Below are positions 53,385 through 59,300 of a stretch of DNA of 64,000 nucleotides, one piece after another (within the stretch, counting starts at the first letter, position 1; each line of letters begins with the position of its first letter). Source of the stretch: Fibrobacter succinogenes. GTDB lineage: Bacteria; Fibrobacterota; Fibrobacteria; Fibrobacterales; Fibrobacteraceae. The translations under genes were made by a program, and so were the position numbers. A model generated the notes under the pieces. It searched no databases. It saw nothing but the letters and a program-made list of their open reading frames with translations, and was not told the origin of the DNA. The DNA is taken from assembly GCA_902762305.1 (NCBI GenBank), contig CACWNW010000002.1:186001-250000 (forward strand), read 5' to 3'.

Positions 53385-54767
53385 ATGAAAAAGATGATCC
53401 TCGCTTCTTGCGTTCTGGCGGCAGCCGTTTTTGCCGCTCCAGAAGCAGCACCCGCCGATGCGAAGGCCCCCGCAGCAGCCCCCGCTGCCGAAGCCGCTCC
53501 CGCTGCTGAAGCACCCGCCACCGAGGCTCCCGCCGCAGAACAGGCCGCTCCCGCTGCCGAAGCTGCCCCTGCAGCCGCCGAAGCAGCACCTGCCGCTGAA
53601 GCACCGGTAGCCGAAGCAGCGCCCGCTAGCGAAGCACCTGCCGCCGAAGCCGCCCCGGCCGAAGCCCCGGCAACCGAAGTCGCCGCAGCCGAACCCGCAC
53701 CTAAGGAACAGGTCGCAGCCGCCGAGCAGAAGCCTGCCAAGAAGAAAAAACGCCGCAAGAAAAAGAAAATGATCCAGAACGCCGTGCTCGAGACCCCGAA
53801 GCTCGCATTCGACATCAACGCCGACTTTGAATTGGAAGCCGGCAAGGTATTCTGGTACAGCGAGGACGACGAATACGCTGACAACCTCGAAACCTGGAAC
53901 GGTGAAGCCAACTTCGCCGTGCTCGCCGAAGGCGAAGACTTCAAGGGCAAGATTGCCGTGGCGTTCAACCCCGGCGACCTGAAGGACGAAATTTTCGCCG
54001 ACAAGGCCTCCAAGAAGGAAGCCTTCCGCAATGACGAAAACGGCAAGGCCGACGACTACTTCAGCCTCGACGAAGCCTGGGCCTTCCAGGAAACCGACAT
54101 GTTCAACTTCAAGGTCGGTCGTTGGGACAACACCGACAAGAACGGTGACTACTTCGGTGGATACATCGACGGCTACAAGAACGGCTTCATGTCCACGCAG
54201 CCCTCCGAGAACCAGTTGCAGTTCGGCTTCACGCCGACCGAAACGATGGACCTCTACCTTTCGTTCATCAGCAAATCGGCCAACTTGAACAAGGGCGACC
54301 TCCGTGCCGTGTTCAACTTCCACAACCTCGAAGCGCTTAACAACATCAAGATCCAGCTCGGTTACCGCAGCAACATCTTCGACCTGGTCTATGACGCCGA
54401 TGCAGTCGTCGAGCACAATGTGTCCCTCAAGGCCAACGTGCCGGTTCTCAACTTCATCAACGTCTTCGGTGAAATCGCCCTCATGGACCTGAGCACCGAC
54501 GGCGACCTGGTCATGCCCATCACGGGCGGTGTTTCCATCACCACTCCGGTTGTCGACCGCATCATCCTCGAAGCCGAATACGTGGGTGACCGTCACGAGC
54601 ACGCCAAGTACGTGAGCAAAAACAGCAAGCACGTGAAGGACGTCCTCGGGGCCATCTACCTCGAGAAGGCCTTTACAGACCGCTTCAGCCTCTCTGCCGG
54701 CTTCCACAGCTTCGGCAGCACGAAGGACTGGATGCTCTCCGGCAACCTCGTCGGCCGAATAAATTAA
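53385..54767 (+). CDS. Porin-like outer-membrane protein with Ala/Pro/Glu tract
   Basis: 460 aa. The signal peptide ends at VFAAPEA; then about 100 residues of Ala/Pro/Glu repeats (PAAEAAPAAEAP type), a basic cluster KKKKRRKKKK near residue 125, and a 330-residue C-terminal part with alternating beta-strands (FNFKVGRWDN, LQFGFTPTETMDLYLSF, IQLGYRSNIFDLVYD) that ends SGNLVGRIN. It looks like a barrel porin with a periplasmic spacer that could touch peptidoglycan. AAGGAG precedes the ATG. High use of optimal codons suggests strong expression. The family is not identified with certainty. Confidence 0.75.
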   Translation: MKKMILASCVLAAAVFAAPEAAPADAKAPAAAPAAEAAPAAEAPATEAPAAEQAAPAAEAAPAAAEAAPAAEAPVAEAAPASEAPAAEAAPAEAPATEVAAAEPAPKEQVAAAEQKPAKKKKRRKKKKMIQNAVLETPKLAFDINADFELEAGKVFWYSEDDEYADNLETWNGEANFAVLAEGEDFKGKIAVAFNPGDLKDEIFADKASKKEAFRNDENGKADDYFSLDEAWAFQETDMFNFKVGRWDNTDKNGDYFGGYIDGYKNGFMSTQPSENQLQFGFTPTETMDLYLSFISKSANLNKGDLRAVFNFHNLEALNNIKIQLGYRSNIFDLVYDADAVVEHNVSLKANVPVLNFINVFGEIALMDLSTDGDLVMPITGGVSITTPVVDRIILEAEYVGDRHEHAKYVSKNSKHVKDVLGAIYLEKAFTDRFSLSAGFHSFGSTKDWMLSGNLVGRIN

Positions 54768-54830
54768 AGCGACCGCTCGAGCTACATCCGGAAGTTAAAT
54801 TACTCCGGTATGCGCTCGCTCTCGCAACCA

Positions 54831-54853
54831 CGCCCGGTTAATACCGGGCGTTT
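54831..54853 (+). terminator. Hairpin after the porin-like gene
   Basis: CGCCCGGT, TAAT, ACCGGGCG, then TTTG; an 8-bp perfect stem with a short T-run. Confidence 0.65.
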
Positions 54854-54885
54854 GTTGCTCACAGACGACCGAGTTCTAGACGTCT

Positions 54886-54907
54886 CCGGAGCGAAACTCC
54901 GGTTTTT
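54886..54907 (+). terminator. Rho-independent terminator
   Basis: CCGGAG, CGAAA, CTCCGG, TTTTT; strong stem and T-run in the plus direction. Confidence 0.8.
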
Positions 54908-54923
54908 CGAGCATTCTCACAGC

Positions 54924-55029
54924 AAAGGCCCGTTAAATAAACCTAAGCCGAGTACAGCAGAAACAAGCTTGCTTGTTTCTATTGTTGAGGCGCCGGTTTA
55001 TGCGATGAAATCGCAATACGGGCCTTTTT
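54924..55029 (+). ncRNA. Candidate structured RNA ending in a terminator-like stem
   Basis: About 106 nt that can fold as a closed multi-branch. The closing stem is AAAGGCCCGT (54924-54933) with ACGGGCCTTT (55018-55027), then T-run. Inside are TAAACC/GGTTTA (54938-54943 with 54995-55000), GCC/GGC (54947-54949 with 54989-54991), a 9-bp hairpin AGAAACAAG/CTTGTTTCT with loop CTTG (54959-54980), and a small hairpin TGCGAT/ATCGCA (55001-55015). It lies after two terminators and 130 bp before the VWA gene. It could be a small RNA or a leader regulating that gene. It matches no RNA family I know; no promoter was identified. Confidence 0.5.
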
Positions 55030-55160
55030 CTGTTCACTGATGGAACCGCTCGCGTTACATCTTTTTTTATAAAAAAATTTACTTTTTTCGAAATTAATTT
55101 ATACATTTTGTATACAACGTCGTTCTTGTTTACGGCGTTGCAATCCTGGGGGAACGGATT

Positions 55161-58100
55161 GTGGTGTACAAATTGACAAAGGTTCTACTATTTACCTTGG
55201 CTTTGGCCATGGGCGCTTCGGCGTATACGCTCCAAATTAGTCCATCGACAACTTCTGGTTCCGGAAGCATCGATTCCTCTGGAATCAGCGTCAAAACATT
55301 AAGCAATGTCAACAGGGGCGATTCCATTATGATCATGGCAAACGCGGCTTTTGACTATCTGTTCAACCACTGGGAAGTTATCGAAGGGTCGTGCAAAATA
55401 CAAAACACAAAAAAAATCGCAACAAAGGTTTACGACATATCAAGCAACTGCACCGTCATGCCGATCTTCAGCTTGGGCTTCCTCTACGCCATCACGGAAA
55501 CGCCCACCCTTTACAACTTCACAGAACACCTGTATGCAAAATTCGTTACTAGCGGAGTCTCCGGAGTCCGGTTCTTCTTCAAGCCCATTACGCCAGGCGA
55601 CTATACGCTCGTCATCTCCAACGGATTGACCCAAGATTCACTAAAATACCTCCGGTACACCTCGCTCCACTATACATCAATCAATAAGTCGCAGACTTTC
55701 TGCGGCACGTTTTCCGAAACCATACATTTCAACCAAGACACCGACCTGTACATCATCATCGCAAACACAACCGAAAACCCGAACAACTTTTGGATCAGCA
55801 TTGCATCGCAATCATATAAGCTGAAGTTCAGTTCCGACGGGCACGGGACCGTCATGCCAGCAAACGGATACGATTCCGCTTTCGCCAATTCCAAATACAC
55901 CGTCTATGCGAAAGGAGACTTCGGTTACCGATTTGCCGACTGGCAGACAATAACAGGTTCGCCCACCATCGACGACAGGGTAGCTGCAAGCACCTTCGTC
56001 ACCGTCAAGGGCAATACCGAACTGAAGGCACGATTCAAGCCCGGCGAGATATACAGCGTGTCCACGCAAAAACAAACTTTCAACTTCAAGAAAAACTACT
56101 ACACGGAATCGACCCAATCGACCATCCGCTTCACATGGACCCCACCCGACACCATGCCGTACATCGTCAACTTCGGTGTCGCCGATTCCATACGAGGAAC
56201 CTATACCGGATATAATGAAGACGGCTCTTTCCGGAATTCCTCAATCCCACAGCTGACAAGCGGTTCAAAGTACTTCCTCGTAAAAGGAACCGCGGGCACC
56301 CCGCTCTACTGGACATTCCGGGAGAATTCCACCGGCATTCCGGACTTATCCTTCACGAGCTGGATATCGACGCCCGCCATCCTGGACGTGAACGCGACAA
56401 AGGGCGGCGCCACAAGCCCGTCAGGGCGACAATATACGAATCCGGGAAGCAAATTCACCATTACGGCATGGCCCCACGGAGGTTATGAATTCAGTTCCTG
56501 GGTTCCCACCAGATGCAACCTGACCCTCGGTGACAGCAAGAAATCCAAGACTTCCGTCATCCAGACTGATCAGCAATGTTCTGTCGAGGCGCAGTTCATC
56601 GAAGACACGTCAGCCATACCGTCCCTTACCATATCGAATCTCGACATCGGGAATTATCCCGAAATCTGCGCGCAGGTTTCCGCGACCGACAAGAACTCCG
56701 GTCTTTCGTTCTACGGGCTCGGCGAGGACGATCTACAACTCTGGCAAGACGGCATCGCCATCAAGCCCCAGGTCACTAGCATCACCAACGTTTCGGGAAT
56801 TTCGGTCGTCATCGTCGTCGACGAGAGCCCCTCGATGGAATACAACGACCGAATGATCAAGGCAAAGGATGCCATCAAGTCATTCATACACAACATGGGC
56901 ACCTACGACAGGACAGCCCTCGTCGGGTTCCGCGGCTACAGAGACTCGACCATCGTACTCCAGTCCATGACCTCGAACAAGTCCCAACTGCTAAAAGCCG
57001 TAGAAAAACTCACAACCTATGGGAACGGCACCAACATCATCACGGGCGCCTACGCAGGCCTGCGACAAATCAGGAACGAAACCAACCCGACAGCAGTCAT
57101 CATATTCTCCGACGGCGAGAACAACGATGGCACCATCGCACTAGAAACAGCCATCAATCTTGGCAAGTCAAAGAAGACCGTCATCCATTCCATCGGTGTC
57201 GAAACCGAGGCCTCGTACCCGCTGGAAGATCTCGCGAAGCAAACCGGAGGCATGTTCACGACTACAAACGACGCAAGCGAACTTTCCGGAATCTACGAGG
57301 CCATCCGCGACAACATCAATTCGCAGTACCTGGTCTGCTACCAGGCTCCCGACACACTCCAAGACGGCGAGACGCACGACGTCGTCATCGGCATGACATT
57401 CAACAACACCGATGCACGCGATACCGTCCAGTGGAACAAAGGTGGGCATCCACCGAGCATCGCCCTTACCGAAGACACCTGGAACCTGGTCAACAACACC
57501 CAGCCGGAGAACAACCCTCTCACCATCGGCGTCTACATTCAGTCTAAAATCAAAATAAACTCCGCCGATCTTTACCTGCGAACATCCGGTACGTCGAACA
57601 GCGTCTTCGCGAAATACACCCTGAAAAACACCCGCGATAGCCTCTGGGAATACACCGTCCCGGCAAACCTCGTTGTTGCGCCAGGGCTGGACTTCTACGT
57701 CATTGCGACAGATTCGCTCGGGCAAACGGGCAAGGCCCCGAAAATCCAGACACCGGCCATGGAACCGTACACCATATTCGTTGGCAATGACATTCCCGAC
57801 GTAAAAACGGCATCCATCGCCTGCAAGGACACCACAGGCTTCAAGAGGTTCTCCTTCAGCATCAAGGACAGCGATGGCATCGGGAATGCGAAACTTTACT
57901 TCAGGGATTCACGGACGGTTATTTTCCAGGAAACCGCCCTCACCTATTCCTTCATTGACGATTCTTGGTCCGCAGAAATCTATGTTCCATCAAGCTTCTT
58001 CTCCACCATAAACTACTACCTCCGTGCAACCGATTCCTGGGGAGCAACCGTCCGCATTCCGGACCATGAATATTTCACTACGGGCGCATGCAGAACAGAT

Positions 58101-59300
58101 TCCACGATTTCTCCGGATGATACGTCCATGACCACGGACACGATTCCCGAGGACACCATCAAACACACTTGGCGAGACTCCATCGTATACTCTCTCATCG
58201 CCGACACCGCCGAGATATACGACAAGGATTTGGACGGCAGGGCTGACTTCGTACGCATCCATTTCAAGGAAGAGCACGACGACAACATCTCGAACATAGA
58301 TTCCATTTTCTGGAATTCGAACTACGGCCAGTGGCGCTACGCGGCTAAGGATGACATAAAGAAGAACCGGCAAGACGGCAAATGGGTCGAAGCCTACATC
58401 AACGAACCATTCGACTACGGCCTGACCATGGCGGATTCCGCAAGGAAGCCCTTCCTGAGTTTTTCGACACCGCTATCGAGCGAACTCGAGAACGTAATGC
58501 TGAGCGACAAGGTCGGCGCAGTCCCCGCAAGGGCCACCCTACATCCGGGCGAGATGAGCCTCGCGAAATATATGGACCCGTCCTCGAACGACCCGCCCGA
58601 CACGCTAGTCATCCAGATGTCCGAACCCATCATCGGCAGCGATAGCGAAAACGCCTGGGAAAAGCTGTTCCGCTACTCCCCCTCGTGCAGGGATTCCTCA
58701 TCGCAACCGCTGATTACAAGCAAGCCGCCGACCATCGACGAAACCGGCACAAAATGGTCGTTCGTCCTCGATATGCACTCCATCAAGACGGGATTCTGCC
58801 TGTATACCGACCCAGATGCGGAATACATTGACATGGCCGGCAACACGCTCGGACGCGGCGGAGTCAAGATCAACGGCACGGACGGCATCATCTACCTTAC
58901 CGAAATCAAGCCGTTGCAGCCCGTCAGCGGTATCGGTCCGCTCCCGAACTGGATTGCCCCGGATGGGTCCAGATGGGAAGAAATGCCGGACACGCTCTCC
59001 GCCATCGGCGTGAGGACGGTACTCCCCTACACGGCAGACGTCTACATCTTCGATGCGCTATCCGTCTACGTGAACAACTTCGAACAAAAATTCGGGTACA
59101 ATGGAGAGATGGAGGACCCGAAGCGCGACAGTCCCGATGGGCAATCCAAACTGGGATTCCTGTACTGGGACGAACATTCCAAGGAAGGGCGGAAGGCCGG
59201 CACCGGAGTCTACATCTGGAGAATATTCTTCAAGTTCGACGACGGCCACAAGGAAGCAATTACCGTAAAGACCGGCATCAAGCGGAACAACGGCATTTAA
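55161..59300 (+). CDS. Large secreted VWA-domain surface protein
   Basis: 1379 aa with a signal peptide (LLFTLALAMGASA). Residues 22-520 alternate three InlB B-repeat-like modules (e.g. YTVYAKGDFGYRFADW, FTITAWPHGGYEFSSW) with beta-sandwich segments. A von Willebrand A domain spans about 545-725, with the metal site VVDESPSM and the later GTNIITGAYAGLR and IIFSDGEN blocks. Ig-like and further beta-domains follow to the C-terminus (TGVYIWRIFFKFDDGHKEA). It is probably an adhesin or surface scaffold. GTG start (two GTG in tandem) after GGGGGA. The family is not described to my knowledge beyond its domains. Confidence 0.85.
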   Translation: MVYKLTKVLLFTLALAMGASAYTLQISPSTTSGSGSIDSSGISVKTLSNVNRGDSIMIMANAAFDYLFNHWEVIEGSCKIQNTKKIATKVYDISSNCTVMPIFSLGFLYAITETPTLYNFTEHLYAKFVTSGVSGVRFFFKPITPGDYTLVISNGLTQDSLKYLRYTSLHYTSINKSQTFCGTFSETIHFNQDTDLYIIIANTTENPNNFWISIASQSYKLKFSSDGHGTVMPANGYDSAFANSKYTVYAKGDFGYRFADWQTITGSPTIDDRVAASTFVTVKGNTELKARFKPGEIYSVSTQKQTFNFKKNYYTESTQSTIRFTWTPPDTMPYIVNFGVADSIRGTYTGYNEDGSFRNSSIPQLTSGSKYFLVKGTAGTPLYWTFRENSTGIPDLSFTSWISTPAILDVNATKGGATSPSGRQYTNPGSKFTITAWPHGGYEFSSWVPTRCNLTLGDSKKSKTSVIQTDQQCSVEAQFIEDTSAIPSLTISNLDIGNYPEICAQVSATDKNSGLSFYGLGEDDLQLWQDGIAIKPQVTSITNVSGISVVIVVDESPSMEYNDRMIKAKDAIKSFIHNMGTYDRTALVGFRGYRDSTIVLQSMTSNKSQLLKAVEKLTTYGNGTNIITGAYAGLRQIRNETNPTAVIIFSDGENNDGTIALETAINLGKSKKTVIHSIGVETEASYPLEDLAKQTGGMFTTTNDASELSGIYEAIRDNINSQYLVCYQAPDTLQDGETHDVVIGMTFNNTDARDTVQWNKGGHPPSIALTEDTWNLVNNTQPENNPLTIGVYIQSKIKINSADLYLRTSGTSNSVFAKYTLKNTRDSLWEYTVPANLVVAPGLDFYVIATDSLGQTGKAPKIQTPAMEPYTIFVGNDIPDVKTASIACKDTTGFKRFSFSIKDSDGIGNAKLYFRDSRTVIFQETALTYSFIDDSWSAEIYVPSSFFSTINYYLRATDSWGATVRIPDHEYFTTGACRTDSTISPDDTSMTTDTIPEDTIKHTWRDSIVYSLIADTAEIYDKDLDGRADFVRIHFKEEHDDNISNIDSIFWNSNYGQWRYAAKDDIKKNRQDGKWVEAYINEPFDYGLTMADSARKPFLSFSTPLSSELENVMLSDKVGAVPARATLHPGEMSLAKYMDPSSNDPPDTLVIQMSEPIIGSDSENAWEKLFRYSPSCRDSSSQPLITSKPPTIDETGTKWSFVLDMHSIKTGFCLYTDPDAEYIDMAGNTLGRGGVKINGTDGIIYLTEIKPLQPVSGIGPLPNWIAPDGSRWEEMPDTLSAIGVRTVLPYTADVYIFDALSVYVNNFEQKFGYNGEMEDPKRDSPDGQSKLGFLYWDEHSKEGRKAGTGVYIWRIFFKFDDGHKEAITVKTGIKRNNGI

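Follow-up and report, generated by a model that had tools for sequence, protein, structure and literature searches.

What is the strongly structured sequence at positions 54924-55029 of the window, the 64-kb stretch of Fibrobacter succinogenes DNA that we analysed? The sequence-only reading had described a 10-bp closing stem, nested helices with a perfect 9-bp hairpin and a T-run at the 3' end, had seen no fit to the known RNAs that it considered, and had proposed either a small RNA or a leader sensing a signal for the large surface-protein gene that follows. All of these structural elements are present (the features of the window described here lie on its + strand). The minimum-energy RNA fold reaches -46 kcal/mol, compared with -24.1 (sd 3.2) for 200 shuffled sequences, none of which folds as well (z -6.8). 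The closing stem (AAAGGCCCGU/ACGGGCCUUU in the RNA fold) joins the left arm AAAGGCCCGT at 54924-54933, found in the folds of this segment and of the whole repeat unit described below and continued outward by ACAG at 54919-54922, with the right arm ACGGGCCTTT at 55018-55027, which is followed by TT and CTGTTCAC; the segment itself ends in TTTTT. The perfect 9-bp hairpin, AGAAACAAG-CUUG-CUUGUUUCU (54959-54980), is carried on a long imperfect arm, and a second small hairpin of 5 bp, GCGAT-GAA-ATCGC (55002-55014; GCGAU-GAA-AUCGC as RNA), appears in homologues in the compensatory versions GCAAT/ATTGC and GCGAC/GTCGC. An equally good fold is obtained for the opposite strand (-45, z -7.2), and as single-stranded DNA the segment adopts the same fold (z -6.1). 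The Rfam search that had been called for returned no family at the gathering score in the 64-kb window, and a permissive scan of 54700-55200 gave chance-level matches only and none on 54924-55029 itself; the window holds no tRNA or tmRNA. The segment is thus a strongly structured sequence unknown to Rfam, and it is part of a larger repeat unit.

A DNA search of the same genome revealed a second copy with 94% identity, and about 20 more copies were found in relatives, all of the same genus and with differing closing-stem sequences. The flanks CTCTCGCAAC and GTTGCTCACGGA gave access to the larger family. Its basic unit of about 94 bp consists of GACCGYTCG-hairpin A-CTCRCTCTC followed by hairpin B, which typically reads GCAAC-CA-CGCCTCG-TTAATA-CGAGGCG-TTT-GTTGC-TCAC.

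The array in the window follows the gene of a 460-aa protein (53385-54767, from the ORF list and from orthologues in other Fibrobacter genomes), which has no Pfam match and may be porin-like. The TAA stop codon of this gene occupies 54765-54767 and the array begins 3 nt 3' of it. Unit 1 (54771-54864) is plain, with hairpins A and B, and matches our covariance model R1 over its full length with 101.3 bits, being itself among the sequences used to build the model. Its hairpin B, GCAAC-CA-CGCCCGG-TTAATA-CCGGGCG-TTT-GTTGC (54824-54858), is evident from the sequence, from covariation over 129 distinct units and from a terminator scan, its core being a terminator-like site at 54830-54851. Unit 2 (54867 to about 55038; whole-unit fold z -5.6) contains the segment in question and is 'filled': hairpin A (54867-54918) is followed by a hairpin B whose loop (TTAA / AATA) carries a 78-nt insert at 54937-55014, with AA on each side (54935-54936 and 55015-55016). 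Both the 9-bp hairpin and the 5-bp hairpin belong to this insert. Comparison with unit starts identifies AACCGCTCGCGTTACATC, at about 55044-55061, as a remnant of a third unit corresponding to the first 18 nt of a plain one. The scan predicts two terminator-like sites in the array, at 54830-54851 and 54886-54902, where 0.8 would be expected by chance, and behind the 460-aa gene such sites were found only within the array. The GC table places an AT-rich stretch of 10-35% GC directly 3' of the array (55062-55118), which would be the likeliest place for a promoter of the next gene; a promoter scan returned no sigma-70 consensus match there and no promoter-like site for the locus. That gene (55161-59300; ORF list, Pfam) lies outside the repeat and encodes a 1379-aa protein with a VWA domain and two InlB B-type repeat domains. 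In most relatives examined, the VWA gene does not stand beside the 460-aa gene.

The insert was delimited by comparison with plain units and with R2, a model built on 30 filled copies and run on 80 genomes of the genus. The upper score class of R2 comprises 46 filled copies at 115-147 bits, and the lower class is a broad population at 67 bits or less. Some matches of the lower class are confined to model positions of about 19-103 and are relatives of the insert alone, widespread in the genus; some weak matches in the genome of the window are plain hairpin-B units. The insert relatives have in common the motif GCCGAG-N-three pairs-GCR-hairpin-YAT-three pairs-CGAGGC in otherwise unrelated surroundings, and ten loci that hold them gave no Rfam match. 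R1 aligns other filled copies over their full length with the extra sequence as an insertion in the B loop (e.g. 1419-1592 of locus L210, 79 bits). The cleanest comparison is offered by locus L020, in which plain and filled units follow one another in tandem and are near-identical apart from the insert. At locus L134, a related element sits in the linker between hairpins A and B of a unit, likewise between two A's. Filled and plain copies have the stem types CGCCTCG, CGACTCG, CCCCAGT and AGGCCCG in common, which would fit an insert that entered B loops many times as well as one that entered once and then spread by exchange. Judging from these alignments, the extra branches of the segment belong to a second structured Fibrobacter repeat, which is dispersed independently and of which a 78-nt member is nested in the loop of hairpin B.

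Seven loci (L220, L221, L223, L224, L229 with two copies, L231 and L232) hold a version of this second family in which the flanks, too, are conserved over a long distance (about 250 bp by eye). It reads ...ggttgatgttagaggcgttc ... AAGCCGAGAGCAGCGGAAATAAACTTGTTTATTTCCATTGCCGAGGC ... taatgtacctaat and has no Rfam match, and one of the two copies at L229 overlaps the start region of an ORF reading MAKKSINILDKDYTRWVKELSTRYRKSQ. This conserved version could be a conserved regulatory region or RNA.

In the genome of the window, R1 has 92 matches, which form 65 arrays with one to five units each and lie between genes. Units in tandem are mostly spaced by 90-99 bp, with a period of about 97 bp. Two contigs start within a repeat unit (G000:C8:4-56 and G000:C24:4-56; loci L205 and L197), suggesting that the repeats break the assembly and that these copy numbers are lower bounds. 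Some units (loci L092, L122 and L017) share this kind of hairpin B but have a left half of quite another sequence (CACCTAAAGGTGGCCATGT...GGTCGC), and the repeat is therefore modular. Near several arrays (L069, L122, L127, L037 and others) we also observed dispersed repeats of a third type, GTCATCCTGAGC...GGATCC. Across the phylum, R1 matches 84 of 168 genomes, namely 78 of Fibrobacter and six of two sister genera (five and one), and none of the phylum genomes outside Fibrobacter and these two genera of the same family. The unit is nearly ubiquitous in Fibrobacter (G064 and G145 are the genomes of the genus without a match) and present in few copies in the two sister genera. A pattern scan of genome contigs with the 9-bp hairpin hit mostly Fibrobacter, plus some unrelated chance palindromes. 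The literature that we searched, which covers part of what is published, holds no description of these repeats, and the genome paper of F. succinogenes S85 does not mention intergenic repeats.

We then related the arrays to their neighbouring genes, called by a simple codon-usage script trained on the window rather than by a standard annotator. The upstream gene is co-directed with the array in 48 of 62 cases and the downstream gene in 31 of 63, as expected by chance; for the filled copies (n=37) the counts are 34/37 upstream and 12/37 downstream. Nearly half of the arrays with clean flanks (26 of 57) start at most 10 nt behind a co-directed stop codon, compared with a mean of 2.9 and a maximum of 10 when arrays were placed at random in the same intergenic spaces (20,000 trials). 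At its 3' end, an array directly adjoins a convergent stop codon in only one of 30 cases. Among the arrays that do not follow a called stop codon, about 14 begin, by eye, directly 3' of a terminator-like hairpin with a T-run. A Pfam scan of 100 flanking genes identified ordinary housekeeping genes, nine of them with a Fib_succ_major domain, and no transposase among the best 25 of the 126 families matched.

The site in the window is variable between relatives. In many relatives, the orthologous 460-aa gene is followed by nothing but a normal terminator; in others, one to four units separate its stop codon from that terminator. At orthologous sites in other Fibrobacter genomes, the repeats stand behind the same gene and the downstream sequence is different. 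The 460-aa genes of loci L039 and L095 are 95.6% identical, with a two-unit array in L039 and none in L095. The filled hairpin of L039 is 100% identical to that of the window over 105 nt, against only about 82% identity for the adjoining gene. By sequence comparison, these differences show recent gain, loss or exchange.

Is the structure itself maintained? In the 30 filled copies, two-sided changes are found at 18 of 41 pairs (79 cells), mostly in the closing stem, with nine pairs of the closing helix and four of its outward extension affected; none of 500 shuffles scores as high. Among 129 distinct units, 539 cells carry two-sided changes compared with 170 after shuffling, in an alignment (A3) that was fitted to the model structure so that pair counts lean towards it. 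The sequence-only reading had named a lack of compensatory changes in homologues as what would speak against it; homologues are rich in them, and the proposed structure therefore stands on this count. In hairpin A, 40-41 of 41 units retain the mismatches C-C, C-T, T-C and C-T, next to a pair that is C-G in some units and T-A in others, suggesting that part of the structure is recognised rather than merely palindromic.

The pairing intermediates bear on the level at which this maintenance takes place. If a sense RNA were selected, intermediates would be expected to be G-U rather than A-C. The units contain 39 G-U and 50 A-C, one doubtful pair left out; the insert alone has about 14 G-U and 8 A-C, and a tRNA control, a small sample, has 11 and 3. 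The equal folding of both strands and the lack of a sense-strand G-U excess favour, but do not decide for, maintenance at the DNA level, including template switching, which can make and repair both stem arms in one step (PMC8794818).

Taken together, the segment at 54924-55029 is very probably hairpin B of a dispersed, modular, REP/BIME-like DNA repeat of Fibrobacter of about 94 bp that would be passively read into the 3' ends of transcripts; the loop of this hairpin B harbours a second repeat. Copies would be spread and homogenised at the DNA level, either by an enzyme acting in trans or through recombination, and the form recognised would be hairpins of single-stranded DNA. Units behind stop codons would be passively transcribed along with the 3' end of the upstream mRNA; their hairpins and T-runs may there terminate transcription or shield the mRNA end.

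The orientation bias could also be explained by selection for a function at the 3' end. Hairpins A and B would then form a 3'-UTR element that ends transcription and shields the mRNA, with its structure selected as RNA. The prevailing co-direction with the upstream gene (48/62 arrays), the location directly behind stop codons, the T-rich sequence after hairpin B with two terminator-like sites in the array, the strong covariation and the conserved mismatches all fit such an element. Nevertheless, about 14 arrays lie behind an existing terminator and hence would be mostly untranscribed, units at the orthologous site either precede a normal terminator or are absent, and the G-U excess of a sense RNA is not seen. 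We therefore regard selection as RNA as possible but doubtful. A passive effect on 3' ends is compatible with the dispersed DNA repeat that we prefer, and to this extent the two explanations overlap.

How the DNA repeat would move can be proposed only tentatively. The unit may be a non-autonomous DNA element peculiar to the genus, with a single orientation of insertion and with target sites immediately 3' of stop codons and intrinsic terminators. The enzyme that moves it would be other than a Y1 transposase and would recognise a hairpin whose pyrimidine mismatches are fixed. The unit would itself be the target of a second such element, which enters its loop between two A's. Mobilisation of a REP by a REP-associated tyrosine transposase (RAYT) of known kind would account for the high copy number, the extragenic location, the palindromes, the tandem clusters and the stem mismatches, but we consider it improbable and have rejected it. 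No Y1 transposase (Y1_Tnp) was found in 53 of 80 Fibrobacter genomes, and near-complete genomes without one (G026, G029, G030, G033 and G078) hold at least 24 units. The single Y1 gene of the genome of the window looks like an ordinary IS200 copy with no units adjoining it; this gene (G000:C18:886-1242, locus L059) is located near tRNA genes. In addition, REPs are palindromes of 20-40 bp with an unpaired GTAG or CGTC head (PMC3733652), whereas the unit is far longer, spanning 94 model positions and starting with GACCG, and its alignment contains neither head.

The proposal of a trans-acting small RNA transcribed from 54924-55029 has in its favour a stable fold with a terminator-like base stem, yet a locus that belongs to a repeat with 92 dispersed unit copies, with differing stem sequences and unrelated genes in front, makes such an RNA very improbable, as do the promoter scan, which returned no promoter-like site, and the observation that neither the folding nor the G-U pairs favour one strand. 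A cis-regulatory leader or sensor RNA of the VWA gene, suggested by the multibranch fold with a terminal T-run about 130 nt 5' of the start codon, is hardly credible and was rejected, since the element follows the upstream gene (34/37 filled copies) and not a related, co-directed downstream set (12/37 filled copies, 31/63 arrays, unrelated flanking genes), the next gene at the other filled copy of the genome is convergent, the repeats persist at the orthologous site where no VWA gene is present, and the VWA gene is separated from the array by the stretch suited to a promoter.

The Fibrobacter repeat resembles REP/BIME sequences (PMC2817692, PMC3733652) in being extragenic, abundant, palindromic and clustered and in hosting another element; REPs are insertion targets of IS1397, IS621, ISPpu9 and others (PMC1525189). 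Unlike these, its unit of about 94 bp has two different hairpins, its arrays are direct rather than alternating inverted and keep to one orientation, with their start immediately 3' of stop codons or terminators, and there is no linked RAYT gene. With non-autonomous elements of the REPIN/MITE type (PMC3116915) it shares a short, non-coding, dispersed sequence that is variably present between relatives and presumably moved in trans, but it differs in having neither an assigned parent transposase nor a defined target duplication. Hairpin B, with its G+C-rich stem and subsequent T-rich sequence at gene 3' ends, is similar to an intrinsic terminator, but it lies within a longer conserved repeat, often beside a separate ordinary terminator, and its filled form carries the 78-nt structured insert in the loop. 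Finally, the attC sites of integrons are structured sequences of about 60-140 bp that lie close 3' of stop codons and conserve structure over a variable sequence. The Fibrobacter repeat is alike in structure, in length, in its location close behind stop codons and in conserving structure over a variable sequence; unlike attC sites, its units stand in tandem without cassettes and are scattered behind housekeeping genes, and inspection of 41 aligned units identified no attC core sites (RYYYAAC / GTTRRRY) at the unit ends.

Our analysis explains a conspicuous intergenic fold of Fibrobacter as a repeat and not as a regulator. It also exposes a trap: because template switching can create and repair both arms together (PMC8794818), even very strong covariation is no proof of a selected RNA in a dispersed palindrome. 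If the repeats indeed move to sites behind stop codons, this insertion habit would deserve an explanation, and the repeats would readily supply both 3' ends and strain markers in a bacterium that is a major fibre degrader of the rumen.
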